Source of the DNA: Echinicola strongylocentroti
GTDB lineage: Bacteria; Bacteroidota; Bacteroidia; Cytophagales; Cyclobacteriaceae
Assembly (NCBI RefSeq): GCF_003260975.1
Contig: NZ_CP030041.1
Location: 4,901,501 to 4,965,500 of the forward strand
Length of the DNA stretch: 64,000 nucleotides
Direction of reading: 5' to 3'
In this document: one piece after another, positions 363 to 62,078 of the stretch
Layout: each line of letters begins with the position of its first letter
Numbering within the stretch: position 1 is the stretch's first letter
Program-made: the position numbers and the translations under genes
Notes under the pieces: generated by a model
Database searches by the model: none
What the model saw: only the letters and a program-made list of their open reading frames with translations
Told to the model about the DNA's origin: nothing

Positions 363-3300
363 ATGCTTATGGTTGTGGTTCGCAATACGCTATTACTTTT
401 CATGATACTTTTTGGCTTGGTAAGGATGCCATCTGCTAATGCACAATTCATTACTACGGACATGCAGGTCAGCATGGTGGTCGATAATGCCTCTCCTAAT
501 GTCGGTGACAATGTCGTATTTACGTTGACGGTCCAAAATGCGGGAGATTCACCTGCGTCTGGGGTGATTGTTACGAACACCTTGCCCAATGGGCTCAGCT
601 ATGTCAGTGATAATGGTGGTGGTGATTATGACCCATCCACAGGAAATTGGGGTCTTGGGATCATGGGAGCCGGTGCCACAGCATCCTTGCAGATCGTCGC
701 CGAGGTCAATCCTAAAGGTAATTATACAGCATCCGCATCAGTAAGTGCCAATCAGAACGACAATTTCCCTGGCAATAATACTTCCAATGTCACATTATCC
801 CCGATTCCTGTAGCGGCTACTTCTATCACACAGACTGTATCCACCACTAGCCCTCAGATAGGTGAGGAGGTTACTTTCACGATAACAGTGGATAATGCAG
901 GCCCCTCTACGGCTACAGGGCTTCTGATGGCGGGCAGCTTGGGAGATGGGTTGGAGTATGTGTCCAGTAATTCCAGTTCCGGAAGCTTTGATCCTGATGC
1001 AGCGACTTGGCAAATCAATGATCTGAGCGCTGGAAACCAAGCCACCCTTAATATAGTGGCGTTGGTATTGCAACCCATTTCGCAGAATACTTCCTATCAG
1101 CTAGAAGCAGCCATCACCAACCAAAATGAACTGGATCCTGATACGGATGACAATACCTCATCTGTCACCTTATCGCCTCTAGCCAGCCCTTCATGGGAGA
1201 TTGATAAATCAGCTAGCGATGACAATTATGCGGTTCCGGGTGACCAAGTGGGATTTGAGATTCGCTTGGAGAATACAGGCAATGTGAATATCAGCAATGT
1301 ACAGCTCTCCGATGAGCTCGTAGACGCTGCTCCCGTGCTGAGCAGTGGGGACAGTAATGGTGACGGCGTTTTAAATCCCAGTGAGACATGGATATATACG
1401 GCCACCTATACGGTTACCCAAGAGGATATTGATAATGGAAATATTACCAATGCCGTATCTGCCCAAGGGACGCCATTGGATGGAGACCTTACCGCTGCAA
1501 CTGATGAAGCCACCGTAGCAGCCCAACAAAATCCCAATTGGGTGCTGACCAAAACCAGCGCCACTTCACCCAATGAATATGCCGATCCAGGTGATGTGGT
1601 GACTTTTGATTTTACATTGGAAAATACGGGGAATGTTTCCATCTCGGAGGTGGATCTCACCGATGCCCAAGTCAGCGAGGGGCCTTCCTACCTTGGTGGA
1701 GACCTGGATTCGGACCAAGTACTGGATGTGGGAGAAACGTGGACTTTTGCCGCCAGCTACACCGTGACACAAGAAGATATTGACAATGGCAGCTTCACCA
1801 ATTCCGCCACGGCTTCAGGAACTCCCGCTGGAGGCGACCTTGATCCTGCCAGTGATAACGAAACCATCGATGCGGTACAAAACCCTTCTTGGACGTTGAC
1901 GAAGTCAAGTACTTCTTCCCCTAACGAATTTACCAATCCTGGAGAGGAGTTGTCTTATCAGATCATCCTTGAAAACACAGGGAATGTTACTATCAGCAAC
2001 GTGGATGTAAGTGATCCTTCTGCCAGTAATGGGCCGGATTTGATAGGGGGAGATGACAATGGTAACGGAGTACTCGATGTGGGAGAGACCTGGACATTGG
2101 AGGCTACGTACACCGTTACACAAGCAGACATCGATGCTGGTGAGTATACCAATACTGCGACTGCATCAGGGACACCCGCAGGAGGTGACCTGACGGATGT
2201 AAGTGATGATGAAACGGTCCCAGCAGTACAAAATCCCTCTTGGGCCATCGAAAAAAACGCCACCACTACCGGTGGGTATACCAATCCCGGGGATGTGGTC
2301 GATTATGAAATTACGGTAACCAATACGGGGAATGTGTCCATCGAAGAGGTAGCTGTACTTGATGGAAAAGCCTCCAATGGGCCTGTTTACGTCTCAGGAG
2401 ATGGTGACAATGATCAGGCCTTGGATGTGGGTGAGGAATGGGTATTTAGTGCCAGCTATACGGTCACACAGGAAGATATCGACAACGGTAGCTTCACCAA
2501 TACCGCTACAGCGACAGGGGATCCTGCAGGAGGGGATTTGGAAGATGTGTCAGATGACGAAACGGTCCCTGCTATCCAAGAGCCTGCTTGGACGATAGAA
2601 AAAAGCACTGAGGAGATCAATTATACCCAAGTAGGTCAAGTATTGAGTTATACCATCGAAGTGACCAATACGGGCAATGTTTCTATTTCGGGCATTAATG
2701 TGACAGATCCCCAGGCCACCAACGGCCCTACTTATATCTCGGGAGATAGTGGAGGGGATCAGGTCATGGCTCCAGGGGAAACCTGGCAGTTTTCGGCTAC
2801 CCATGAGGTGACCCAAGATGACCTGAACAATGGCTCATTTACCAATACCGTGACGGCAGATGGAAATCCTGCTGGGGGAGAGCTGGACGATGTAAGTGAT
2901 GAGGTGACTGTTCCTGCGGTAAAAGACCCCGCCATCCGTGTCCTTAAAGTCTCTGATAAAAGTGGCTATAGCCAAGTGGGAGAAGAAATCACCTATACGG
3001 TTTATGTTCAGAACAGTGGAAACGTATCGCTTTCTGATGTCACTGTTACTGATCCATTGACGGATTTTACCGATAATATTGATATCATCAATTCCGGGGA
3101 AATCATCGAGTTTACGACTACGTACACCGTTACCCAAGAAGATATTGACAATGGAAGCATAACGAACACCGCTTCTATCTCAGCCACCGACCCCGATGGC
3201 AATGAACTGCCCAGCGAGGACAGTGAAATCATCAATGCATCCCAAACTCCCAAAATTTCACTAAGCAAAAACACCGACCAAACAAGCTATGATGCGGTAG

Positions 3301-6300: not shown

Positions 6301-9300
6301 GCAATATTTCTTTCTTTGACTTAGTGGTTACGGATCCGTTGACAGGCTTGGATACCAATATTGGCACCCTTTCCCCTGGGGATGTGGAGCAGGTAACAGC
6401 CACCTATACGGTTACCCAGGAGGATTTGGATAATGGCAATGTGACCAATTCAGCCGCAGTGGATGGGGTCGATTATGATGATAATCCGGTCAATGAGACC
6501 AGTACCGTAGTGGTGCCTGCTGTACAAAACCCTCAATTTACCGTTACCAAAACACCAGATATCAGCGAATTTGATCAACCCGGACAATTGATCAATTATG
6601 AAATTACCGTCACCAATTCCGGCAATATAACCATCAGCAATGTAAATGCATCCGACCCTCAGGCGGCCAATGGTCCAGATTACCAGTCGGGTGATACCAA
6701 TGATGATGGCATCATGGAAGTGGGCGAAACCTGGACTTATTCGGCAGATTATACGACCACACAAGAAGACGTGGACAATGGTGGCTTTACCAATACCGTT
6801 ACCGCTTCCGGGACTCCTGCAGGAGGTAATCTCTCCAATGGAACGGCCTCTGCGACCGTTTCAGCTGTGCAGAATCCATCTTGGACAATTGTGAAAACCA
6901 GTACTACTTCACCTAATACCTACAGTAACCCCGGTGATCAGCTGACTTACGAAATTGCCGTGCAAAATACCGGTAATGTTTCTATCAGAAACATTACGAT
7001 TTCTGATCCTGGAGCGGATAGTAGTCCCGTTTTGGAAGGAGGGGATACTGATGGAGACATGGAATTGGATGTGGATGAAACTTGGGTCTATGAAGTAGCC
7101 CATGCTGCGACACAGGCGGACTTGGACGCAGGAAGTTATAACAATACAGCCACTGCCTCAGGAAATCCCGCGGGTGGATCCTTGGCCGATATCAGTGATG
7201 ATGAGACCGTTCCGGCCGCGTTAAACCCTGCTTGGACACTTACAAAAGTCAGTACGACACAGCCCAATTCCTTTAACAGTCAGGATGATTTGCTGATTTT
7301 TGAATTGCAGTTGGAAAATACCGGTAATGTCACCATTAGCGAAGTCCAGTTATTGGATGGACAGGTCAGCGAAGGGCCTACCTACAGAGGCGGAGATGTG
7401 GATCAGGACAATCAATTGGACGTTGGTGAGACGTGGAATTATTCTGCCAATTACAGAACGGTGCAGGCAGATGTGGACAATGGGGAGTTTGTCAATACCG
7501 CTACAGCCTCGGGAACAGTAGCCGCCGGAAGCTTAGAAGATGCCACAGGAGAAGCGATCGTCCCAGCCATCACCAATCCTCAACTGACCATTACAAAATC
7601 CGTAGAGGAAACAGGATTTACCGCTCCTGGCGAAGTACTTAATTATACCATTACGGTGACCAATACGGGTAACCAGACCATTGCCGAAGTAGAAGTCCTC
7701 GACCCATTGACAGGCTTGACAGAGACCATTCCTTCCTTGGCGCCAGGAGAGGTGTATACTTATAATGAGACCTATACCGTTACCCAAAATGACCTGGATG
7801 TCGGGTCTATAGAAAATACGGCCTCTGCCACGGGACTGGATCCTGACGGCAATACGGTTACCAGTGAGGATATCGAAGTGATCAATGGCTCCCAATCACC
7901 TGCACTAGACCTGATCAAAGGTGTTTCAGAAAATGGATACATTAACGCAGGAGAGGTGGTCCATTATACCTTGGTCACCCAAAACACCGGCAACGTCACC
8001 TTGTTCGATCTCACCATCGTAGATACCTTGATCAACCAAACCATTGAAATTGACCAATTGGATCCTGGGGAAAGGCAGCGCTTTGACGAACCATATACGA
8101 TCACACAGGAAGATGTGGATAGAGGGGAGATCGCCAATACGGCCACGATAACCGGTACCGATATCAATGGCAATGAATTGACGGATTCAGATTCAGAACT
8201 GCTTATAGGGACGCAATTGCCAAGCATGTCAGCTTCCAAGGCCAGCTCCACCAATAACTATGACGCAGTGGGTGACACCATTCGCTATACGTTTACGCTG
8301 ACCAATACCGGCAATGTCACCCTCTCGGATGTGTTGGTCGATGACCCTAATGCAGAAATTACCAGTACCAATCCCGTAGCCTCCATTGCACCAGATGAAA
8401 ATGTGGTACTCAATGGCATTCACATAGTGACACAAGAGGATCTCGATGCAGGGAAATACACCAACCAAGCTACGGCAATAGGTGACGATACAAATGGAAA
8501 TCCCATCAGTGCAACGACGAACAGGGTGACCGTACCGGCCATCCAAAACCCACAATTGACGGTTACCAAATCAACCACAACGGGCGAGTACGATGAGGTA
8601 GGAGACGTGATCGACTATGCCATCACGGTGGAGAACACAGGAAATGTGACCATCTCCAATATCAATGTGACTGATCCCAAGGCTGACTTCCTCGGCAGCA
8701 CTAATATCGCCCAATTGGCACCAGGGGAATCCATCACACTGGATGCCCAACACGTAGTGGTACAGGCGGATTTGGATGCTGGGGAATACGTCAATATCAG
8801 TAAGGCGACCGGTAAGGATCCAAACAACAAAAATGTCACCGACAACTCCAATGAGGTAGTCGTTCCCGCTATCCAGAATCCCGCAATGGAAGTGGTCAAG
8901 TCTTCCTCCAAGACTACCTATAGCACAGTAGGGGAATCGATACCGTATACCATTGTGGTGACGAATACCGGTAATGTGACCATGCATGATATAGAAGTGA
9001 CGGATCCAAAAGCCGAAATTATTTCTGGTAGTCCAATAGCAAGCTTGGCCCCAGGTGCATCGGCAGAGATCAGTGCCGAACACGTGGTGGTGCAGGCAGA
9101 TATAGACCAAGGTAGCTATACCAATCAGGCCACGGCTACCGGCAAAGACCCCTTGGACAATTCCCAATCAGTAGTCTCGAATGAGGTGACCTTGACAGCT
9201 ATTCAGACTGCTTCCTTCGAAATTACAAAAGCTACTACCACACCGGTTTATGAAGCCGTTGGCGATGTGGTTCTTTATGAACTGGAAGTGGTAAACACCG

Positions 9301-32915: not shown

Positions 32916-34256
32916 TAAAGGTAATAATATTATTTTTTAAAGCCAAATATGCTTATGTGTCTAATCATCAGTGGTTTGTAAAATTTGGTTTGTTGTCTTT
33001 TTGCCTGTTTTTATATTTTAGGGCTATTCTTTTTACCAATTTATTATTTTCTATATGTCAGATAATAAGAGTGTTAAGGTAGAAAAGTGAGTTGTTTTGT
33101 CTTTGGATCTTTATATAAGAAGAACAAAGTCCAATTGGCTATTCCCTTTGAAGATTATTATCTACTCTGTACATACTAAGAAAAACATGTATTATGGGAC
33201 AGGCCATGATATGGGAGTGGTATCTAATAGCCTGTCCCAAATACCTGGCAAAAACTGCCTTCAGGTATTATTCGTTAATGAGATTTTGTTAGTGATAGGG
33301 TGAAATGCAGACGAACGTATTCTCCGAGAGGTTGTGATTGCGGAGGTCTTTACACATAGATATTAACAACGATAAATGAGGAGTCTACTGCCTTCGGAAT
33401 GGTTATGAATTTAGACGGAAAGCATAAATCATATTGTGTGGTGGGTGTTGTTTATTAGAGGTAAATATATCAATACCTTGTGATGAAGAATACATTCAAA
33501 AATAGGAAAACCTTATGAAAGTAAATTCATCATCCCTTATCAAAGAGTTAAAAACCAATCTGTTAAAAATGAAAGATTCTCTTTCAAAGAAACAAAAGTG
33601 AACATTCCCTACCAACTATTAAATGTTATAAATTCCTATACACCCCATTTTAATAGATTTTTATTTTGCTATCTAATAAGAACATCCGTCAGGTTAAGTA
33701 GATATTACTTCCATAACAATGCATTACGTTTTGGCAAAAGCAAGATGTAGTTTTGTATACAAAACCCTCTTTTCAGCCTCTCAAGTCGGTGGGAAAGGTG
33801 CTCGGGACTCGCAGCCTTTGGATGGGGGTGATGGTTGATAGTACCTCAGTCAGGATGGTCGGAATATTGGGGAAACATGATTACTGTTCCAAGGTTATTT
33901 TTTCCAGGGGACTTCAAAATTGCCGATAGGTGCTGCCTCAATCCATTTTCCCTCAATAGATAATAACGCGTTTTTGGAAATAGGACGGTGAGGGGGTAGG
34001 TCTAAATATTATATGGTATAAATAATGAAATGCTATTGATTTTATCTTCATAAATGAGCAATTCAAATAATAAATTTACTTTTATTTGAATTTGGCTTAC
34101 TATAAAATTATATTTTCATTATGTTTAAGTAACGCTATTAGAACAACACCTTGAACCAAGGAGCCCCTTAGGTTCCCAAGCCTTATTCCCAAAGTGGCCT
34201 GCTTAGTATTTTAAGCACATCATTGCTTTTAGCCCCAACCCTTTATTGTACAAGCT
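32916..34256. other. Gene-poor tract of about 1.3 kb
   Basis: AT-rich sequence with no convincing gene. A 68-codon open frame (33097-33303, +) has no domain, no clear ribosome-binding site and ordinary intergenic composition, so I leave it out. The tract contains a perfect 16-bp palindrome, GTTTTGTATACAAAAC, at 33750-33765. It starts right after the tRNA fragment and ends at a sigma factor gene, so it could be decayed mobile-element DNA. Confidence 0.5.
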
Positions 34257-48859: not shown

Positions 48860-49621
48860 ATGAAGTTCGCAATTGTTGATGGTAAGAAAATGGAGGCCAA
48901 TAAAGGTTTAAAGGGTATTTGTCCATGTTGTAAATCGGAAGTCTTTGCCAAATGTGGCGAAGTAAAAATTAATCATTGGGCACATAAACGTAATTGTGAC
49001 ATCTGGTGGGAAAATGAAACGGAATGGCATAGACAATGGAAAAATCATTTTCCGGAAGATTGGCAAGAAATTATACAGTTTGACCGAAACGGTGAAAAGC
49101 ACATCGCCGATGTAAAAACAGAAAAAGGTTGGGTACTGGAAATTCAGCATTCATATATCACAGCTGAAGAACGGAATTCAAGAACCCATTTTTATTCTAA
49201 ATTAGTTTGGGTAATTGATGGCTTAAGAAGAAAAACTGATAGAATACAATTCCAGAGAATTTTGGAAGAAAGTTCTAGAGCCCCAGTTGGCAACGTTAAT
49301 ATCCGGAAGATAAACTTTCCAGAAGAATCTCGACTTCTAAAAGAATGGCTTAATTGTAGGGTACCAGTATTCTTTGATTTTGATAAATCGGGATTATGGT
49401 TTTTACTTCCTCTACATATTAAAGATGAAGCCTACTTGATAGATTTTTCTCGGGAAGAATTTATCAAAGTTCATAATAAAGAGGGATTTGACGAATTGAT
49501 GAATGAAATCATTCCAAATATCCGAAATATGATAGTTGAGTATAAGAGGAAAATTTCTAATCGGTCTGTCAATGACCTGCTTAATCCTAGAAGAACAAAT
49601 ACTAAAAGACGTCGATTTTAA
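48860..49621 (+). CDS. CoiA-like nuclease-fold protein
   Basis: 253 residues. An N-terminal zinc-ribbon-like part has CPCC at 21-24, C32, HWAH at 39-42 and C46. It is followed by a restriction-endonuclease-like core with H81, IADV (D84) and LEIQHS (E94, Q96), which fits the D...ExQ active site of the CoiA family. CoiA promotes recombination during competence in Streptococcus; in Bacteroidota stand-alone members are scattered in accessory regions and some may act in defence. No competence gene lies nearby. AT-rich composition and position in a patchy region suggest acquisition. Confidence 0.75.
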   Translation: MKFAIVDGKKMEANKGLKGICPCCKSEVFAKCGEVKINHWAHKRNCDIWWENETEWHRQWKNHFPEDWQEIIQFDRNGEKHIADVKTEKGWVLEIQHSYITAEERNSRTHFYSKLVWVIDGLRRKTDRIQFQRILEESSRAPVGNVNIRKINFPEESRLLKEWLNCRVPVFFDFDKSGLWFLLPLHIKDEAYLIDFSREEFIKVHNKEGFDELMNEIIPNIRNMIVEYKRKISNRSVNDLLNPRRTNTKRRRF

Positions 49622-49899
49622 ATCTCTAATAAAAGCACTGGAAACCAAATAATGGGCTGATCCTGAATGTATAATCGGGTGATGTTGCCATCGATCGGGC
49701 TATCCCGACCACAGCAAAATATCCGCCGAAAATACCTGACTTTTTGACCTCAACCCTTCCAAAATACAAATGAGAAAAATGGCTTTCCCATAATCACCTC
49801 ATCCGCAGCACTTGTTCGTTCAACACTGCATCCATGTTCGGCCGTTCCGGCCACACAAATGCTTAGTTATTGTAGCTAGTTTTTTATTAGACATCTTGA

Positions 49900-51321: not shown

Positions 51322-52530
51322 ATGAAACCAGTAAGTGTAGGTTTTAACCTCGATAAAGCAAGTAACATTCAAAGTGGTCTTCGTGCCAGATTCTCCTATA
51401 AAGGTAAGCAATTCCTTTACAGCACCGGTATAATTGTACTGTCCGAAAATTGGGAGAAGTCTAAGCAAAGGATGAACCCTAAAAAGGAATTTGGCTGGGA
51501 GGTCAATGACCAGTTGGATGAAATTTCGAAGGTCATTAAAAAGGTAGTGATAAGTCTATATATCCATAAATCGGACGTTATTACCAGTAAGCAAATGAAA
51601 TTTCTTATCGATGCTGCACGACAGGCAAAACAGGAAGAAGCCAAACCTGTCAGCAGCACCAATAGTGTCAAGGAGTTTTTTGAAGATTGGATAACAAAAA
51701 AATCTAAAGGGAAGGACGGATACTTTAAGCGCAGGTGGAAAACCACCGTAAATAATGCTTTAGAAATCTATCCATTGTTACGGTTTACTGATATTAACGA
51801 GGCTTTCTTTTCTGATTACGTGGAGAATCTGGCGGATGTAGAGCAGAATGTTAACAACACGATTAACGGAAAGGTCAAGCGAATGCAGCAACTATGCAGG
51901 GAGGCAATGAAATACGGATATACCGTAAATCCACATTTCAATGATTTCCGTTTCCCTGGTGAGAAATTACCACCGGTATACCTAACCTGGAAGGAGGTTG
52001 AAAAGATAGAACAGCAGGATCCGGACTTTTATTCTGATGCATTCCTTTTCCGGTGCTATACTGGTGTTAGATTCTCGGATATGAAAAACCTAAATCAATA
52101 CATGATCCAAAAAAATGGAGGTAAGATGGTCTTAAGGTTTGATATCGTGAAGCAAAGAAAACACCACTTGATATTCCTTCCCAAACAAGCTTACAACCTA
52201 TGGAAGCGGAATGACTTTAATTGGTCCCGTAATAGAAACCAGACCGAGAACGAGCAAATAAAGATCATCGCCAAGCGTGCCAAACTCAGGAGGCTTGTAC
52301 AGATCATGAGGCACCGTAACGATAAACTAGAAGTAAAACAGTCCCCTATCTTCGATATCATAAGCACACACATGGCCAGACGTACATTTGCCAGGGAATG
52401 GTACGAACGGGGCGGGGATCTTAATAAACTTAGGGAGTATCTAGGACACGCTGAACTTGCAACGACACTGAACTATATAGGAGTAGAAAATGATGAGGTA
52501 AATAACGAGGCTAGTAGGTTGTTCGGGTGA
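51322..52530 (+). CDS. int: Tyrosine recombinase / phage integrase
   Basis: 402 residues of the Bacteroidota integrase type: an N-terminal arm-binding-like region, a SAM-like core-binding domain (about 115-215) and a catalytic domain (about 220-400). Catalytic residues are visible: R250 in CYTGVRFSD, H350 and R353 in THMARRTFA, H376 in LGHAELATTLNYI and nucleophile Y385. It is complete. It lies just inside the tRNA-end repeat and should integrate and excise the prophage. Its neighbour on the other side is the convergent repressor gene 2 nt away. Confidence 0.95.
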   Translation: MKPVSVGFNLDKASNIQSGLRARFSYKGKQFLYSTGIIVLSENWEKSKQRMNPKKEFGWEVNDQLDEISKVIKKVVISLYIHKSDVITSKQMKFLIDAARQAKQEEAKPVSSTNSVKEFFEDWITKKSKGKDGYFKRRWKTTVNNALEIYPLLRFTDINEAFFSDYVENLADVEQNVNNTINGKVKRMQQLCREAMKYGYTVNPHFNDFRFPGEKLPPVYLTWKEVEKIEQQDPDFYSDAFLFRCYTGVRFSDMKNLNQYMIQKNGGKMVLRFDIVKQRKHHLIFLPKQAYNLWKRNDFNWSRNRNQTENEQIKIIAKRAKLRRLVQIMRHRNDKLEVKQSPIFDIISTHMARRTFAREWYERGGDLNKLREYLGHAELATTLNYIGVENDEVNNEASRLFG

Positions 52531-52532
52531 TA

Positions 52533-52973
52533 TTACTTGATATTGTTCAGGTCTTCAATAAGCTCAATTATTCTATCTGGAAGGGAGTGGTTGTCACTTT
52601 CTTTTTTGAGTTGTTTGGCAATTCTTAAAAACTGGTCATTCTCAAGGACAAGGTCCCTGTAATGTTCATTGCTATGTGCAGCATCCCGGACAATGTCCTG
52701 TATGTATTTCTTTATATCTGATAATTCATTTTGAAGGTTCTTATATATAGATATATTAGGGTCTGATAATATTCCTGATGATTTTTTTATACCAAACAGA
52801 TCCTTGAGTTGCTTAAAGTTCTCCCCTTTTGGCTCGCTTTTACCCAGCTCCCATTTTGACACACTTTGTGTGGACACTCCTAGGTATTTCGCCAATTCTG
52901 ATTGGCTCCATCCTTTATTCTCCCTTGCGTTTTTTATCTGCTCAGGAAGTGATTTATCATAGGTTTTAGTCAT
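52533..52973 (-). CDS. XRE-family repressor
   Basis: 146 residues. An N-terminal helix-turn-helix (about 10-65: QIKNARENKGWSQSELAKYLGVSTQSVSKWELGKSEP) is followed by a helical C-terminal part that may mediate dimerisation; there is no peptidase domain for RecA-type self-cleavage. It is transcribed away from the early genes, as a phage CI-like repressor would be. The intergenic space it shares with the early operon contains a promoter overlapped by the repeated AGTTGA-type motif, a likely operator. Confidence 0.9.
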   Translation of the reverse strand: MTKTYDKSLPEQIKNARENKGWSQSELAKYLGVSTQSVSKWELGKSEPKGENFKQLKDLFGIKKSSGILSDPNISIYKNLQNELSDIKKYIQDIVRDAAHSNEHYRDLVLENDQFLRIAKQLKKESDNHSLPDRIIELIEDLNNIK

Positions 52974-55272: not shown

Positions 55273-55704
55273 ATGGAAAGTTTGTATAGACAAAAGTACC
55301 AAGATAAAAAGCTAAGCTGGCTGTTGGAAAAAGCTCAAGAAGCCTTTAACAGGTATATCAGAAAGAGGGATAACAACAACCCTAGAAAGGGATTTTTCAC
55401 ATGTATATCATGCGGAAAGGTAAGGGATGAAAAGTACCTTCAAGCTGGCCACTATATGCCGGCAGGATCCAACGCTCCTGTAAGATTTGACGAAATGAAC
55501 GTACATGGGCAGTGTGTAGAATGTAACACCTATCTGCATGGTAATCAGGAGGCATACAGAAGGGGCCTAGTAAGGAAGTACGGAGAAGAGGCGGTGGAGG
55601 ATCTGGAACTTAAAGCCAAACAGATGTGGAAATGGTCCAGGCCTGAAATAATAGCAATCATTACAGATTACAGGGCAAAGGTGAAGGAGGTGAACTATGA
55701 CTAA
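55273..55704 (+). CDS. ninG: NinG-like recombination endonuclease
   Basis: 143 residues. CISC (C44, C47), AGHYMPAG (H60), CVEC (C81, C84) and H89 in LHGN form the zinc-binding core of lambda NinG (Rap), a Holliday-junction endonuclease with an HNH-like fold that resolves branched intermediates in phage recombination. Normal length apart from a shortened N-terminus. It starts the gene block that continues into the DGR, after an operator-like site. Confidence 0.85.
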   Translation: MESLYRQKYQDKKLSWLLEKAQEAFNRYIRKRDNNNPRKGFFTCISCGKVRDEKYLQAGHYMPAGSNAPVRFDEMNVHGQCVECNTYLHGNQEAYRRGLVRKYGEEAVEDLELKAKQMWKWSRPEIIAIITDYRAKVKEVNYD

Positions 55705-56146
55705 TATGAATAGCAACGAAATTAGAATAGGAAACCTGGTTTACCCGAAAGGATCATCCACCCTATCCCATGTCACCGGAATCTTTGAAAACCTATGTTG
55801 CCTTTCTGGAATAAATAATAAATATTCCAAGCACTACCTGTTTGAACAAATCTCTCCTATTGAATTGTCAGAAAGTATACTGGAAAAATTCAAGTTCAAG
55901 AAAGACGAACATGGGTACTGGTGGATAGAATTTGATAGAAGGTACTTATCACTGATCCCTAGTCAAGATGGATATTGGTACCCTGTTCTGGTCCAATGCC
56001 CTGAAGTATCATCAGAGAGCGAGCAACATGTATCAATCAACAGGATCAAATACGCACACCAAATACAGAACCTGTTTTTCTCCATTTCACACCTAGAGTT
56101 AGTTTTTGAAACCAAAATACAGATAAATGAAAACGCTAAAAATTAA
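55697..56146 (+). CDS. Hypothetical phage protein with RIGN motif
   Basis: 149 residues. Opens NEIRIGNLVY and ends with KYAHQIQNLFFSISHLELVF, the same start and end pattern as the 142-residue protein at 61650 (ELRIGNLF ... YVHQLQNLFYDITELEL). The two are paralogues of a family common in Bacteroidota phages, function unknown. Overlaps NinG by 8 nt and the first DGR target by 20 nt. Confidence 0.7.
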   Translation: MTNMNSNEIRIGNLVYPKGSSTLSHVTGIFENLCCLSGINNKYSKHYLFEQISPIELSESILEKFKFKKDEHGYWWIEFDRRYLSLIPSQDGYWYPVLVQCPEVSSESEQHVSINRIKYAHQIQNLFFSISHLELVFETKIQINENAKN

Positions 56147-56576
56147 GCAAGACAATGTGGTAAATGCTTACCAGTCCGCTGATCAGGAGGGCAAAAAGCT
56201 TTTGGAATCCCTTTTCCCTGGACAATTCTTCTCCATGGAAGCGATCAAGACTTTTGAGGATCTATGCAGGATAGCCGGTGTAGATCCTAAAGACTATGAA
56301 TGTGGTGACCCATTTCTAACTGCCTGTAATAAACTGCAGCTAATTTACCGTGTATTCAACCAAGGATGGGAACCCGACTTTTCAAACTTGTCAGAATGGA
56401 AATACTACCCTTGGTTCAAGTATAATGCGGGTTCCGGCTTCTCGTACTACGACTACGATTTCACGTACTCGGACACGGACGTCGGTGCCCGCCTTTGCAC
56501 GGACACGGCCGAAAAGGCGGAGTACATAGGTAAAACCTTCGCTGACATTTACAACGATTTTCTAACCATCAAATAA
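56127..56576 (+). CDS. DGR target protein 1
   Basis: 149 residues. An N-terminal helical region (about 10-95) has the KTFEDLCRIAGVDP motif shared by Bacteroidota phage proteins of this kind. A C-terminal domain follows: SEWKYYPWFKY, then the variable stretch (residues 101-124, VR1), then GARLCTDTAEKAEYIGKTFADIYNDFL. Sequence variation is confined to codons that are A-containing in the template repeat at 57012. The variable residues (about 108-118) are Tyr, Asp, Phe, Ser and Thr. The C-terminal domain probably has a ligand-binding fold that tolerates substitutions, as C-type-lectin DGR targets do, but I cannot show the fold. What it binds is unknown. It overlaps the preceding gene and lies 8 nt before a paralogue. 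Confidence 0.9.
   Translation: MKTLKIKQDNVVNAYQSADQEGKKLLESLFPGQFFSMEAIKTFEDLCRIAGVDPKDYECGDPFLTACNKLQLIYRVFNQGWEPDFSNLSEWKYYPWFKYNAGSGFSYYDYDFTYSDTDVGARLCTDTAEKAEYIGKTFADIYNDFLTIK
56427..56499 (+). repeat. DGR variable repeat 1 (VR1)
   Basis: 73 bp aligned without gaps to the template repeat 57012-57084. Over the first 72 positions I count 12 differences, all where the template has A, and none at the 50 non-A positions. The match stops sharply on both sides. VR1 ends about 80 bp before the stop codon. Confidence 0.93.
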
Positions 56577-56584
56577 CCCATATC

Positions 56585-56971
56585 ATGGATATCAAAGACC
56601 AAATCAACAGCTATGAGGATGCTTGCAAAATCCTCGATCGAAAGCCTCTTACCTTGGAAGAATTCTCATTCCTTCCAGAATCGGAAAGACAATCTTTTTA
56701 TTCCCTTCACAGGATCCGAACTGGTATTGAGGCTATCAATGAAGGACATGTGTTTGATTGGAATAACTGGGATGAAAGTAAGTATTACCCATGGTGGGAC
56801 CTGGAAACCTATAATGATGATCCTGCGGGTTCCGGCTTCTCGTACGGCGACTGCGCTTCCGCGGGCACGTGCGCGAACGTCGGTGCCCGCCTTTGCACGA
56901 GAACACGGGAACACTGTGGCCACATAGCGAAGGTGTTTTTTGAAGACTACCGCAACTGGATAAAGCAATAA
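56585..56971 (+). CDS. DGR target protein 2
   Basis: 128 residues. N-terminus (NSYEDACKILDRKPLTLEEFSFLP ... EAINEGHVFDWNNWDESKYYPWW) is of the same kind as the first target but shorter and divergent. The variable stretch is residues 81-104 (VR2), followed by GARLCTRTREHCGHIAKVFFEDYRNWI. The conserved frame KYYPW ... SGFSY ... VGARLC is shared with target 1, while the residues between differ strongly: Gly, Cys, Ala and Ser here. Two targets driven by one template are a less common DGR arrangement. The ligand is unknown. Confidence 0.9.
   Translation: MDIKDQINSYEDACKILDRKPLTLEEFSFLPESERQSFYSLHRIRTGIEAINEGHVFDWNNWDESKYYPWWDLETYNDDPAGSGFSYGDCASAGTCANVGARLCTRTREHCGHIAKVFFEDYRNWIKQ
56825..56897 (+). 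repeat. DGR variable repeat 2 (VR2)
   Basis: 73 bp aligned without gaps to the template repeat. Over the first 72 positions there are 17 differences, all at template A, including three codons changed at two adjacent A positions (AAC to GGC twice and AAC to TGC). No non-A position differs. Confidence 0.93.
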
Positions 56972-57011
56972 CAAACCAGGTTGTATACTGTCTGTGCTGT
57001 CCGTTCCGAGT

Positions 57012-57084
57012 GCAGGTTCCAGCTTCTCGTACAACGACTACGATTACACGAACACGAACACGAACGTCAGTGCCCACCTAAGCA
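57012..57084 (+). ncRNA. DGR template repeat (TR)
   Basis: Non-coding template lying between target 2 and the reverse transcriptase, the usual DGR place. It contains 22 adenines in its first 72 positions, many in AAC, TAC and ACG codon-like triplets, which maximises variability after adenine mutagenesis. It is preceded by about 40 nt unrelated to the targets and followed by sequence that differs from the VR flanks. An RNA covering it would be reverse-transcribed with adenine errors and copied into VR1 or VR2. A translated frame does run through it (56981 onward), but I think that is accidental. Confidence 0.9.
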
Positions 57085-57184
57085 ATTCCATGACAGTATA
57101 GACCTTGCCAACAGTGCAAAAAATCACGAGTACAGAAGGGGCTTTGGTATCAACAGAGAACAAGACCCTAAAACAGCAAAGGCA

Positions 57185-57286
57185 ATGAAGAGACTGAATA
57201 ATCTATTTGATAAAGTGGTAAGCATGGAAAACCTTCAGCTAGCAGATCAATTGGCCAGTAAGGGAAGTCAAAGCAATACGGGGTGA
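57185..57286 (+). pseudogene. Out-of-frame N-terminal segment of the DGR reverse transcriptase
   Basis: Reads MKRLNNLFDKVVSMENLQLA then DQLASKGSQSNTG-stop. This matches, from memory of the family, the usual start of Bacteroidota DGR reverse transcriptases (MKR..NL...I...NL..AD..A.KGK...YGV). The rest of the enzyme continues in the frame one nucleotide back (YGVKVHRENQESN), from about 57277. One base appears to be missing around 57275-57279. No classic slippery heptamer is present. Confidence 0.7.
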
Positions 57287-58152
57287 AGGTTCATAGGGAG
57301 AACCAAGAATCAAACCTTATACTTCTTCATCGGATGTTACTGGACGGATCATTTAGGACCTCAGAATACGACACCTTTAAGGTTTACGAGCCAAAGGAAC
57401 GTGAAGTATTCCGTCTTCCCTACTTCCCTGATAGGATTGTCCACCACGCCATTATGAACATCTTAGAACCGGTATTTGTATCCACCTTTGCGGCTGATAG
57501 TTACAGCTGCATCAAAGGGAAGGGAATACATGCAGCTCAAAGGGCCGTGATGAAAGCCCTCAAAGATGTACCAGGTACAAAGTATTGCCTAAAGATGGAC
57601 GTAAAGAAATTCTACCCGTCCATTGACCATGAGATCCTAAAAACCCTGCTCCGGAAAAAGATTAAGGACACTCGGTTACTATCCTTACTGGATGAGATCA
57701 TAGACAGCACCCCTGGCATTCCAATAGGGAATTATCTGAGCCAGTATTTTGCAAACTTCTACCTCACCTATTTTGATCACTGGGTAAAGGAAGTGCTGAG
57801 AGTAAAACACTATTTCAGGTATGCTGATGATATGGTAATCCTTGCTGACAATAAGCCTTATCTACATCGGCTCCTATCGGAAATAAGCACCTATATGAAT
57901 GACCGGTTAAAGCTACAGGTTAAATCCAATTACCAGGTATTTCCAGTGGAGTCCAGGAGCATTGACTTTTTAGGATACAGGTTTTACCACTCCCATACCC
58001 TACTCAGGAAATCAATCAAGAAAAGCTTTGCCAGGAAAATTGCCAAAGGTGCCTCCAAACAGGTTTTAGCTTCCTATATGGGTTGGGCCATTCATTGTAA
58101 CAGTAATCACTTAATTAAAAAATTAACAAATGACCGCGCAAAGATTCAGTGA
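57283..58152 (+). CDS. Diversity-generating retroelement reverse transcriptase
   Basis: 289 residues if translation begins at GTG 57283; the family N-terminus is in another frame just upstream. Polymerase motifs are intact: YCLKMDVKKFYPSID with catalytic D106, IPIGNYLSQYFANFYL (148-160), where IGxxxSQ replaces the QGxxxSP of group II intron enzymes and marks the DGR clade, and RYADDMVILA with the catalytic Asp pair at 182-183. IDFLGYRFYH and the C-terminal KSIKKSFARKI follow. It copies the template RNA into cDNA with errors opposite adenine. Its end overlaps the next gene by 23 nt. If the missing N-terminal 33 or so residues are needed, the element could be inactive. Confidence 0.9.
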   Translation: MKVHRENQESNLILLHRMLLDGSFRTSEYDTFKVYEPKEREVFRLPYFPDRIVHHAIMNILEPVFVSTFAADSYSCIKGKGIHAAQRAVMKALKDVPGTKYCLKMDVKKFYPSIDHEILKTLLRKKIKDTRLLSLLDEIIDSTPGIPIGNYLSQYFANFYLTYFDHWVKEVLRVKHYFRYADDMVILADNKPYLHRLLSEISTYMNDRLKLQVKSNYQVFPVESRSIDFLGYRFYHSHTLLRKSIKKSFARKIAKGASKQVLASYMGWAIHCNSNHLIKKLTNDRAKIQ

Positions 58153-58432
58153 TTTTGGGATAAAGTCCCCATCACAGGTTTTCACTGGGGATAAGGTTAA
58201 AATATTCAGGATCCTAAACAGGGAGATACAAGTATGTGACTATCGTATTGAGCCTTCCAAGTATTCCGAGGGTGGTAAATGTCTCTACCTTCAGATAGAC
58301 GTGGAGGGTGTTAAGTCAGTGGTATTTACCGGGTCCAATCACTTGATACAACAGATTGAAATGGTACCCAAAACAGGCTTCCCATTCAACACAACCATTA
58401 TACAAGAAGATCAGCGCTTTGAATTTACTTGA
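58130..58432 (+). CDS. Small beta-rich protein next to the DGR reverse transcriptase
   Basis: 100 residues, predicted mainly beta (FTGDKVKIFRILNREIQVCDYRI, CLYLQIDVEGVKSVVFTGSNHLIQQIE). The layout suggests an OB-like fold, but no family is certain. It overlaps the reverse transcriptase by 23 nt. No Avd-like four-helix accessory gene is visible, so this protein is a candidate partner of the enzyme. It could equally be an unrelated phage early protein. Confidence 0.6.
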   Translation: MTAQRFSDFGIKSPSQVFTGDKVKIFRILNREIQVCDYRIEPSKYSEGGKCLYLQIDVEGVKSVVFTGSNHLIQQIEMVPKTGFPFNTTIIQEDQRFEFT

Positions 58433-58433
58433 T

Positions 58434-58712
58434 ATGAGACTAACACAAAAACAAGAAAAGGTAATCCAGTTCATAGTAGATGGACGTGGAGAAATTACGA
58501 TATCAGAGGCGGTAACCTTAATAGGTGACCAATACCACAACCAATCAAAGTATGTGGGCGAAACCCTAAGCAGGATGGTTCGTAGGGGTGTCCTTTGCCG
58601 TGTTCGTAGGGGTGTGTATAAGCTGGCCACAAAGGTTAGTGGTAAAAAGGATACGTATGTGGTCAGTCCATCACAAACGAGGTTATTTGAACAAGTGGAG
58701 GCCGCATCATGA
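58434..58712 (+). CDS. Small winged-helix phage protein
   Basis: 92 residues from ATG 58434 (1 nt after the previous stop); a longer frame beginning at 58356 would overlap too far. LTQKQEKVIQFIVDGRGEITISEAV and then YVGETLSRMVRRGVLCRVRRGVYKLA have the helix-helix-wing layout of winged-helix DNA-binding domains. Its stop overlaps the methyltransferase start by ATGA, so it may regulate or accompany it. Confidence 0.6.
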   Translation: MRLTQKQEKVIQFIVDGRGEITISEAVTLIGDQYHNQSKYVGETLSRMVRRGVLCRVRRGVYKLATKVSGKKDTYVVSPSQTRLFEQVEAAS

Positions 58713-60868
58713 CTAGAGAAGCATTGATAAATTTTTCATCCAGCAAGTCACTTTCAAGACTATACGTTGATTCTAGAGGAAAACTTTGCTTTGATGAGGA
58801 ACCAAAATTTTTCTACATCGATCTTTTTTGTGGTGCGGGTGGAGTGAGTTCAGGTATAGTTAGAGGCGGTGGTAAGGTAATATATTGCATTAATCATGAC
58901 CCCCTGGCCATCGCAAGCCACAGAGCTAACTTGCCTGGTGTATTCCATGCTACTGAGGATATAAGAACATTTAATTTGACCCCATTAATTAGGGTAGTTG
59001 AATTTATCCGGAAGAAGAATCCAGGCGCCTTTATCTGCCTGTGGGCTTCTCTGGAATGTACCCATTTTAGCAAAGCAAAAGGTGGTGAACATAGGGAGGC
59101 TGATTCCCGGACTTTGGCTGAACACCTTTATCGGTACATTGATGCACTCGACCCTGATTACATTGATATCGAAAATGTTGTGGAGTTCATGAGCTGGGGA
59201 CCACTTAGAATGAAGTGTGCCAAAATGCATAAACATAAGTGTGATCTCAGCTTTGACAGCCGATTTGCTTACCAGTATGAAAAGAAAAAAAGGGGTAAAA
59301 AGAAAAGAATAGCTTGCGAGGAATATCATCCGGATAGATGCGAGTTGAAAATGAAGCATATCCCTCATTACAAAATGGTACCTAAATCACGGGATAAGGG
59401 TAGGGATTACGTTAGATGGTTCCAGGATATTTGCGAACGGTTTGGTTATGACTATGATTATAGGATCCTGAATAGTGCTGATTATGGTGCAGTGACAGCA
59501 CGTACACGGTATTTCGGACAATTCAAAAAACCTTTTCTTCCATTCACTTGGCCAAAGGCGACTCACGCAAAGAACCCAAAAAATGAAGGTCTTTTTGGTA
59601 GTTTAAAGCCCTGGAAAGCTGTTCGGCCAATGCTAGATCTAGAAGATGTGGGGAGGAGTATTTTTGGCCGGAAAAAAGAACTATCTGAAAACACGCTGAA
59701 AAGGATATATGCCGGTTTGGTGAAGTATGTAGCTGAAGGAAAAGAGCCGGAATTCATTATGAAATACCTTTCCAACGCTCTTAAGACCGGTATTTCAAAC
59801 CCTGTAGATTTGGATAATGTGGCTCCGACCGTTACCACTCAGAACCGATTAGCTTTTGTTAATGCTCAATTTATAGCAAAACACTTCTCTGGAAAGCCGC
59901 ATCAAAAAGTACATCCATTAAGTGAGCCGGCCAGAACAATTACAACGTCAGCAAATCAAAGTCTAGTTTCTACCGAATTTCTATTGAAGTACCATGGGAC
60001 AGGTGATAATGTTCTCCCTATGTCAGGGCCTTCAAGTACAATTACGACTAAAGATAGGATGGCAGTTATTTGGCTTGATAAGCAATTCCGTAGCGAACTA
60101 AATCACCAAGACATAGATCGACCTGCAGGTGCAATTATGACAAATGACAAGCATTGTAAAATGACTGCCGTTTGGGTTGATAAGCATTACAGCGGTAAAC
60201 ACAATCACCAATCAGCTGATATGCCTTTAGGATCTATTTTAACAAAAGACAAATACGCAAACATTCAATGCTTTGTCATGAATCAGTTTTCTGGTGGTGG
60301 TCAACATAGTTCAGTAGATAAACCTTTAGGAGCAATCACAACAGTACCGAAATCTAATGTAATCCAAGCTGAAAGGTTCCTTTTCAACCACAATTACAGT
60401 AACGGTGCAACAGATATCGATAGCCCGGCACCAACCTTATTGGCTAGCAGAAAGCATTACTATTTGCTCAATCCACAATACCAGTCCAAAGGAGGTGACA
60501 TTGACCGTCCATGTTTCACTCTTATTGCCCGTATGGACAAAATGCCTCCATATTTAATGGAAGCTGACAAAGGTGAAGGTGATGCGGCCATAATCATATA
60601 CGAAGATGACTGTGAAACAATGAAGAAAATTAAGCTTTTCATGGCCATTCACGGAATATGTGATATTAAAATGAGGATGCTTAAAGTGCCAGAGCTTTTG
60701 AGGATTCAAGGATTTGGAGATAAATATATTCTGAAAGGTACCCAAACTGACCAAAAACGGTTCATTGGTAATTCCGTGGAAGTAAACTTGGCGAAATCTA
60801 AAGTTGCTGAAAGGATTAGGGTGTTTCAAGAAATGTATAGGCAATACCAAAACCAGCATGTAGCATAA
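58709..60868 (+). CDS. C5-cytosine DNA methyltransferase with an eightfold-repeated recognition region
   Basis: 719 residues. Motif I IDLFCGAGGVSSGI (about 37-50), the catalytic Cys117 in LECTHFSKAKGG where most enzymes have PCQ, ENV (155-157), motif VIII TARTRYFG (263-270), and motifs IX-X at the end (LLRIQGFG 664-670, KRFIGNSVEVNLAK 683-696). Between them, about 348-617, are eight repeats of about 33 residues of the form Y-SG-HxxxxxDxPlGTITTKDK, an unusual target-recognition region. No restriction partner is adjacent, so protection of phage DNA against host nucleases is more likely than a restriction-modification system. The substrate sequence is unknown. Confidence 0.9.
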   Translation: MTREALINFSSSKSLSRLYVDSRGKLCFDEEPKFFYIDLFCGAGGVSSGIVRGGGKVIYCINHDPLAIASHRANLPGVFHATEDIRTFNLTPLIRVVEFIRKKNPGAFICLWASLECTHFSKAKGGEHREADSRTLAEHLYRYIDALDPDYIDIENVVEFMSWGPLRMKCAKMHKHKCDLSFDSRFAYQYEKKKRGKKKRIACEEYHPDRCELKMKHIPHYKMVPKSRDKGRDYVRWFQDICERFGYDYDYRILNSADYGAVTARTRYFGQFKKPFLPFTWPKATHAKNPKNEGLFGSLKPWKAVRPMLDLEDVGRSIFGRKKELSENTLKRIYAGLVKYVAEGKEPEFIMKYLSNALKTGISNPVDLDNVAPTVTTQNRLAFVNAQFIAKHFSGKPHQKVHPLSEPARTITTSANQSLVSTEFLLKYHGTGDNVLPMSGPSSTITTKDRMAVIWLDKQFRSELNHQDIDRPAGAIMTNDKHCKMTAVWVDKHYSGKHNHQSADMPLGSILTKDKYANIQCFVMNQFSGGGQHSSVDKPLGAITTVPKSNVIQAERFLFNHNYSNGATDIDSPAPTLLASRKHYYLLNPQYQSKGGDIDRPCFTLIARMDKMPPYLMEADKGEGDAAIIIYEDDCETMKKIKLFMAIHGICDIKMRMLKVPELLRIQGFGDKYILKGTQTDQKRFIGNSVEVNLAKSKVAERIRVFQEMYRQYQNQHVA

Positions 60869-60893: not shown

Positions 60894-61178
60894 ATGGACT
60901 ATAGAAAATTAATCCTATCCGGCAATCTAGTATCAGATGCCGAGGTAAAGCAGAGTGAAAAAGGAAATTGGACGGCTTTTAAAATAGCCTGTAATCCAAC
61001 GAAAGAAGAAACGGTGTACTACTCCATAGCCATCAATGGAGATAAGCTTGCAGAGTGGCTAAAAAAGGGTAAAAAGGTAGTAGTAGAAGGTACTCCCCAT
61101 GTGGAGGCAAAACAGAACAAGTACAATGTAACTGAAATTTACCATTCCGTGAAGAATGCACGGGTAACCATGATGTAG
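60894..61178 (+). CDS. ssb: Single-stranded DNA-binding protein (short form)
   Basis: 94 residues forming an OB fold: YRKLILSGNLVSDAEVKQSEKG, AFKIACN, YYSIAINGDKLAEWLKKGKKVVVEGTP. It lacks the acidic C-terminal tail that recruits host replication proteins, which is common in phage SSBs. It lies with the phage replication genes and should coat DNA during phage replication or recombination. Confidence 0.88.
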   Translation: MDYRKLILSGNLVSDAEVKQSEKGNWTAFKIACNPTKEETVYYSIAINGDKLAEWLKKGKKVVVEGTPHVEAKQNKYNVTEIYHSVKNARVTMM

Positions 61179-61649: not shown

Positions 61650-62078
61650 ATGTACAAACAGATGAATCCAAGAGAATTAAGAATAGGAAATCTATTTCGT
61701 GACCGCCAAAGTGGTGATATCATTGAGGTAGTTGAATTGAATGAAAACACTATAACCTTTGATGCAGGTAAGTGCCTTGAATCCGGGTGGCAAGCGGAGC
61801 CAATAGCATTAACAGAAAAGTTGTTACCGAAACTAGGGTTTATATGGTGTACTGGTAGGCATGGCGAATATTACATGCATGAACAACAGGAGTTGTTTAG
61901 GGTTTGGAGACATTCTGAAGGTTCATTCGGAATTGGACGAAAAGACTTGGAATCAAAAGATAGAGAGTTTAATACTCACTGGATGACATTGAATTGTAAG
62001 TATGTTCATCAGTTGCAAAACCTATTTTATGACATTACAGAATTAGAGCTATATGTAAAGGAGGTTAAAAATGGCTAA
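61650..62078 (+). CDS. Hypothetical phage protein with RIGN motif
   Basis: 142 residues. Paralogue of the protein at 55697: both open N-ELRIGNL and end H-Q-LQNLFY-ITELEL. A duplicated phage gene family with no known function; the two copies flank the DGR and methyltransferase block. Overlaps the replication gene by 8 nt. Confidence 0.65.
   Translation: MYKQMNPRELRIGNLFRDRQSGDIIEVVELNENTITFDAGKCLESGWQAEPIALTEKLLPKLGFIWCTGRHGEYYMHEQQELFRVWRHSEGSFGIGRKDLESKDREFNTHWMTLNCKYVHQLQNLFYDITELELYVKEVKNG

Follow-up and report, generated by a model that had tools for sequence, protein, structure and literature searches.

Diversity-generating retroelements (DGRs) of phages are mostly understood as changing tail specificity. 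A large survey of DGRs notes that it could not reach remote targets (PMC8144416). The DGR of BPP-1 comprises mtd, avd, a template repeat (TR) and brt, and its target is the tail protein Mtd. Systems in which one TR serves two targets are described in reports on tentaclin DGRs (PMC10743442) and on Bacuni phages, where one variable repeat (VR) is distant (PMC8143477); a distal second VR near counter-defence genes is reported for four gut prophage species in a further study (PMC12629997). Here we describe a DGR in a prophage of Echinicola strongylocentroti, located in a stretch of 64,000 nucleotides (contig NZ_CP030041.1, positions 4,901,501 to 4,965,500 of the forward strand; this whole stretch is called the window, and its numbering is used throughout).

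Overall, we lean towards reading this element as a dedicated two-target DGR, in which the reverse transcriptase (RT) is predicted to rewrite VRs in a pair of neighbouring genes; the proteins that these encode are likely intracellular variable binding proteins. The sequence itself shows a TR with two VRs, a DGR-type RT, a cassette that recurs in dozens of phages and a fourth gene linked to the RT. In the proposed mechanism an adenine-error-prone RT would copy the TR RNA and the mutated copy would overwrite the VRs of the two targets, with the fourth gene serving as accessory factor in the role of Avd; the targets would be made early, would not be virion parts and would probably bind their variable partners inside the host cell. 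The locus resembles BPP-1 in the adenine-specific change between TR and VR, in the order of target, TR and RT, and in its RT (37% identity). It differs in that two small targets (three in some relatives) take the place of Mtd. The targets of the tentaclin and Bacuni systems are described as receptor-binding or fimbrial-tip-like, whereas those of the window are short paralogues in the early block. Remote second VRs have already been published; apparently new are a dedicated lineage with paired early-block targets and its probable non-Avd accessory gene.

Target 1 (56127..56576, plus strand, 149 amino acids, the long form) and its paralogue target 2 (56585..56971, plus strand, 128 amino acids, the short form) both match phrog_11581 (E 7e-26 and 5e-17). 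VR1 (56427..56498) and VR2 (56825..56896) were compared with the TR (57012..57083), all on the plus strand, over 72 positions, of which 22 are adenines and 50 other letters in the TR. VR1 differs from the TR at 12 positions and VR2 at 17, in each case exclusively at TR adenines (hypergeometric p 4e-8 and 2e-12), and none of the 50 other positions is changed in either repeat. An earlier note on this DNA had claimed precisely these 12 and 17 substitutions at template adenines, which is correct, though it overlooked that six of them are common to both repeats (TR offsets 2, 9, 57, 64, 68 and 69, flanking a core at offsets 21-51). Since adenines occupy comparable flank positions in the TRs of relatives, the six shared substitutions have the look of fixed differences between template and targets rather than fresh mutations, and diversification proper would therefore amount to 6 substitutions in VR1 and 11 in VR2. 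Between themselves the two VRs differ at 13 of the 72 positions, all 13 at TR adenines within the core. Scanning both strands of the window and the next 24.5 kb for sites with at most 18 non-adenine mismatches to the TR returned the TR, VR1 and VR2 only, and a 701-base query spanning VRs and TR matched the genome at a single place, namely itself. A candidate additional VR in the prophage's own tail genes, which lie within the 24.5 kb scanned beyond the window, was not found. The two targets are paralogous members of phrog_11581, as would suit an origin of the pattern by chance or ordinary gene duplication; the adenine-only changes and their recurrence in other loci refute such an origin, which we regard as practically ruled out.

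The target family extends well beyond this genome. A protein search with target 1 gave 36 proteins (target 1 counted) and an alignment-based search at least 1,490, of which 120 were listed. Two contig scans added 133 loci, 53 of them in GTDB genomes and 80 in IMG/VR (the best of 482), which together with the window and two phage records make 136 loci, including duplicates in which the same contig or sequence appears twice (e.g. L012/L090, L015/L018, L059/L060 and L075/L078). A TR is present in 86 of these loci, an RT in 88 and both in 80. Two targets accompany the TR in 73 of the 86 TR loci, three in 11 and one in 2. Of the eight RT loci for which the scan reported no TR, seven do have one, which had been masked as a target (two of these seven are decayed), and L067 has none; the TR of L064, a locus without RT, was masked likewise. 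Targets beside their own TR measure 118-171 amino acids, with the exception of one fused open reading frame (ORF) of 286 amino acids: at L106 7515-8372 this single ORF stands where two targets are expected. In L064 (1-1483) target, TR, target, TR and target alternate, a duplicated cassette with two TR copies. L007 (Dulem virus 41) has a target homologue, and its stretch of 10.4 kb gave no RT match. Among 295 genomes of the family and 395 of the phylum the target family occurs in four and three, respectively, the window's own genome counted in both. Judged by its gene content, the element is a widespread but little-described DGR lineage, characterized by two or three phrog_11581 paralogues, a TR, an RT and a gene of about 100 amino acids; no published description of such a dedicated lineage or of its linked gene was recognised in the searched literature, as far as its accessible text goes. 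The assignment of the prophage to Bacteroidota fits these relatives.

Adenine specificity is also seen in the relatives. In 177 target/TR pairs from 85 loci we counted 2,506 mismatches at TR adenines against 70 elsewhere, a total biased in favour of adenine specificity as the TR scan left adenine mismatches unpenalised; 134 of the pairs have no mismatch elsewhere. A comparison free of this bias is offered by the nearly identical loci L087 and L101. Over 3,020 aligned columns VR1 shows nine changes, all nine at TR adenines, VR2 and the TR show none, and the 12 other changes all fall within the last 75 columns, where the two phages start to diverge. The earlier note had proposed to look for non-adenine VR differences across strains, and in these two relatives there were none. 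Because the VR1 differences are all at TR adenines, relatives of this DGR look active, retrohoming being indicated for L087/L101 and not for the present genome. For L023 and L084 (92% identical) 32 of 35 VR changes are at TR adenines, with 325 changes elsewhere. With six duplicate or decayed loci left out, core TR adenines correspond in the VR to A (38.8%), G (30.4%), T (19.7%) or C (11.1%). Possible fixed differences between TR and VR at their 3' ends, of the IMH/IMH* kind, were counted at the GSRL/GARL motif in 158 pairs (five loci and the pairs without the motif were left out). At its Gly position the TR has A in 153 pairs, all of them changed in the VR, where the G is set by the anchor and the A of the TR is not. 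In the following Arg codon the TR has A in 139 pairs, again all changed, the R/L/Q of the VR being set by the anchor. The anchor did not include a second Gly, located 16 codons upstream; at this position the first base in the TR is A in 90 of the 158 pairs, and every one of the 90 is changed. Given the adenine-only differences, the unique sites, the DGR-type RT and the pattern in L087/L101, the identification as a DGR in the earlier note stands.

The main part of the RT (57283..58152, plus strand, 289 amino acids from a GTG start) matches PF00078 (E 5.6e-19) and phrog_1423 (E 3e-116), and its best solved relative is the bRT of BPP-1 (E 6e-45). The nearest named phages are crAss-like (56%), and in one of these, cr55_1, a TR/VR-like pair adjoins the RT. 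The translation contains IGNYLSQ and YADD, as the earlier note had described; the RT is of the DGR type, yet what that note missed is that its frame is interrupted. The N-terminal segment (MKR...LADQLASKG) is found in the preceding ORF (56981..57286, plus strand), which also contains the TR and whose 3' end matches the N-terminus of the relatives' RTs (phrog_1423, E 0.01), and the remainder lies one frame over, the TGA of the first ORF overlapping the GTG of the second. The interruption (57180-57300) is near residue 38 of the relatives' RTs. Upstream of the RT match the frame is open for at least 33 residues in the 87 other RT loci (L008, a crAss-like phage, included), most of which show an MKR-type N-terminus, against 7 residues in the window and in L009, which is the same prophage. 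The continuous RT frame of a working DGR copy is thus absent from this genome. Three explanations come into question: an inactive copy, translation that begins at the overlapping GTG, and a sequencing error in the RT. The interruption bears directly on the possibility that the DGR of this genome is a relic whose VR differences predate the breakage of the RT. We consider this a serious possibility, though somewhat less likely than not, given that decayed DGRs do occur in the lineage (L012/L090 and L031/L033, with TRs of few adenines and 6 non-adenine mismatches). Against a relic, neither VR1 nor VR2 has a non-adenine mismatch to the TR, so that decay is not yet visible; coupled translation could take place across the overlapping stop and GTG, and an error of one base in the sequence is possible.

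In an RT tree with Group II intron-like RTs of the host genome as outgroup, 70 of the 78 RTs from dedicated DGRs form one clade (support 0.73). Around it branch the RTs of gut tail DGRs, the crAss-like RT and eight dedicated RTs, that of the window included (support 0.53 to 0.86). With such support values the tree does not resolve the direction of evolution.

Directly behind the RT lies a gene of about 100 amino acids (58130..58432, plus strand, phrog_19665), a candidate accessory protein. The earlier note missed this gene. By tblastn it is detected behind the RT in 78 of the 85 RT loci that are long enough to contain it, and not at all in the 49 loci without RT; in 73 relatives its start is at -16 to +36 nt from the end of the RT match. 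The relation also holds in the opposite direction. When viral contigs were fetched by the linked-gene family alone (the best 80 of 158 loci; 23 of these 80 contigs were already in the IMG/VR target scan), an RT precedes the gene in 80 of 80, ending -60 to +100 nt before it, and targets are present in 70, the other 10 holding at most 1,285 nt before the gene. A first pass with a profile of the linked gene (later passes were not counted, as the profile then also matched parts of RTs) detected eight further RT loci at E 5e-14 to 3e-3. In L150, L165 and L168 the match falls within the ORF of the RT itself, where a YCDD motif is also present (a fusion); it is a separate ORF after the RT in L152 and L158, and one before the RT in L154, L156 and L160. 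A TR is present in seven of these eight, the TR scan having covered all except L150, a Bacteroides phage in which the gene is thus found in a distant form. Among 37 control loci taken as lacking an RT the profile matches L109 only, which has a TR and no RT match. This locus (7977-9300) holds two targets, a TR and the linked gene, and no RT match was obtained in its 16.5 kb even at E 10.

The linked gene is probably a DGR accessory factor that does what Avd does elsewhere, judging from its linkage to the RT. It is comparable to the Avd, HRDC and MSL accessory proteins (PMC10053308) in being a helper gene linked to the RT. It differs from Avd in that no sequence similarity to Avd and no Pfam or NCBIfam match were found; where BPP-1 has avd, an unrelated RT-linked gene stands instead. 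A search with the Avd of BPP-1 against 1,780 ORFs from 87 loci (a greedy, incomplete ORF set) gave no match at E 1. With the L098 member of the family as query, 50,697 phage records gave none at E 1e-3. As a candidate for a cofactor that stands in for Avd in DGRs, the gene, which is sometimes fused to the RT, can be tested.

The same target family also occurs as the remote target of tail-side DGRs. In LoVEphage (MW660583) a single TR (49388-49500) lies beside the RT. The phrog_11581 homologue, at 34004-34116 on the opposite strand, differs from it only at TR adenines over 113 nt, and the tail collar fibre gene adjoining the TR carries a VR of 118 nt (49670-49787) with one non-adenine mismatch. 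Four phages related to LoVEphage show 17-26 pairwise differences in the phrog_11581 homologue, most of them in codons 138-163. We searched for remote TRs in the genomes of 32 loci without RT; RT matches were obtained in 24, and 20 stretches around RT matches were examined. Nine of the 10 GTDB contigs that hold both a cassette-less family member and an RT have a matching TR (L116 has none). In these nine the TR lies by the RT, and VRs occur both in the distant family member and in the gene adjoining the TR, at a separation of 15.6-54.5 kb; distal member and TR are on the same strand in all nine, and the distal VR has no non-adenine mismatch in six, one in two and five in one. The TR of L115 is also matched by L114, which lies on a different contig of that genome and shares 10 kb of identical sequence with L115, and no TR was matched for nine other loci with the RT on another contig. 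For six of the nine contigs the gene next to the TR was submitted to profile searches. Five are phrog_5302 tail proteins (E <1e-138) and the sixth, a 500-amino-acid piece from L165, matches at 3e-12. The phrog_11581 profile in turn matches the VR segment of the five strong phrog_5302 matches (E 4e-7 to 7e-5). On the minus strand of L168, near 1200-1319 (plus-strand ruler), a second family member has its own VR with one non-adenine mismatch to the TR; it shares its contig with the L135 member and the RT, and one TR may thus serve three genes.

The earlier note had stated that the targets of the window carry no recognised tail-fibre domain. Neither target matches a Pfam or NCBIfam family (a single Pfam line at E 0.25 is noise), though the VR segment is related to that of DGR tail proteins by the profile match above. 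Target 1 and a relative with the long form were modelled with AlphaFold2 (pLDDT 84 and 86). The N-terminal part is helical in these models, which further contain two strands, a variable loop of low confidence and C-terminal helices. Each target would combine a helical N-terminal domain with a variable segment related to that of tail proteins. As to the resemblance to the published gut prophages (PMC12629997), the distal target in LoVEphage and the nine contigs belongs to the family that also includes the targets of the window, and a DNA methylase also follows the DGR of the window. The window's lineage differs from them in that its targets adjoin the RT and no tail VR was found in the window; within the window and the next 24.5 kb, tail genes included, a single TR does not serve both a tail gene and a distal gene.

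The location of the DGR provides an indication of where the targets would act. The prophage starts with a tyrosine integrase (51322..52530, plus strand), where the IMG/VR contig of the same prophage also begins, followed by a helix-turn-helix repressor-like regulator (52533..52973, minus strand), a NinG-like recombination protein (55273..55704, plus strand), the DGR, a C-5 cytosine DNA methylase (58709..60868, plus strand) and a single-strand DNA-binding protein (60894..61178, plus strand); terminase, portal, capsid, tail and lysozyme genes come next. As the DGR lies between the integrase and repressor on one side and the terminase on the other, it belongs to the early/replication block, in agreement with the earlier note. 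Gene order and strand were surveyed in 87 loci (eight, mostly duplicates, were left out, and one representative was identified per gene cluster). MuB-like genes (19 loci) and MuA-like transposases (11) are upstream and on the strand of the targets. Downstream, the opposite strand carries tail_S/neck genes (21 of 21) and also Mu F-like genes (16 of 16). In five loci a gene that we take to be a terminase is on the targets' strand. In LoVEphage the target and the tail/RT block lie on opposite strands. This arrangement points to expression of the targets apart from the virion genes in Mu-like loci and in LoVEphage.

Several observations weigh against intracellular targets of a working DGR. The window's genes in question all lie on one strand, as do the distal member and TR of the nine contigs, so that a separation of target and virion genes by strand is limited to LoVEphage and the Mu-like loci. 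The terms early, non-virion and counter-defence are read from gene order and strand, and a VR segment common to tail proteins would fit an adhesion role as well. Furthermore, the RT frame is interrupted in this genome, unlike in its relatives, and the other target-bearing genomes among the 295 of the family and 395 of the phylum hold no near copy of this prophage, thus no second strain to show movement of its VRs. Finally, unlike in BPP-1, no Avd and no hairpin after the VRs were found: in the window the longest perfect hairpin or cruciform stems within 4-34 bp behind the VR measure 4 and 3 bp. A further difference from BPP-1 is that the VR is followed by about 25 codons. A BPP-1-like hairpin was also rejected for the relatives, as it is not enriched (mean stem 4.28 in 171 segments, against 3.96 after shuffling).

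Given the shared VR segment, it might be argued that the targets are virion or cell-surface adhesion proteins and that the DGR diversifies receptor binding, only the position of the genes being unusual. One TR serves a tail gene and a family member in LoVEphage and in the nine one-stranded contigs, and phage DGR targets are mostly tail proteins in published surveys (PMC8144416). Nevertheless, targets opposite to the virion genes in Mu-like loci and LoVEphage, the retention of the family member as an additional protein in phages that already have a tail DGR, and the small size of the proteins without a Pfam domain make an adhesion role rather unlikely. A role in which the targets sense variable molecules of the host or of rival phages and thereby adjust lysogeny or replication, rather than blocking defence, seems quite improbable to us. 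The DGR is indeed placed between repressor and replication genes, and relatives have MuA/MuB neighbours, but Pfam, NCBIfam and PHROG searches gave no DNA-binding or signalling domain in the targets.

Returning to intracellular binding proteins, the most likely role of the targets would be to bind variable host proteins, defence proteins above all. We propose this tentatively, with counter-defence as our leading guess. A bolder and unlikely extension is that a DGR lineage with its own accessory protein mass-diversifies cytoplasmic binders against host defence, gut phages using one template for both a receptor-binding tail and an intracellular weapon. If true, this would mirror, on the viral side, the antigen sensors that bacteria diversify by DGRs, for which a part in phage-host conflict is likewise proposed (PMC10907252); those systems are bacterial and many have NTPase or protease partners, whereas the present one is phage-borne and no such domain was found. 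In either case a DGR lineage here serves a pair of small early-block proteins, members of a family that is also the distal second target of tail DGRs such as that of LoVEphage. If the targets are intracellular, phages may mass-produce variants of something besides tail tips. Since the family is named and is represented by dozens of loci and by phages that can be induced, it can be asked what a phage gains from diversifying a non-tail protein.

Two minor observations concern the surroundings of the cassette. A phrog_10066 protein is present in two copies that flank the DGR and the methylase (55697-56146 and 61650-62078). Between DGR and methylase, an ORF at 58356-58712 has a winged-helix match of the AbiEi-antitoxin type (PF13338, E 2.5e-5) that falls just short of the cut-off.

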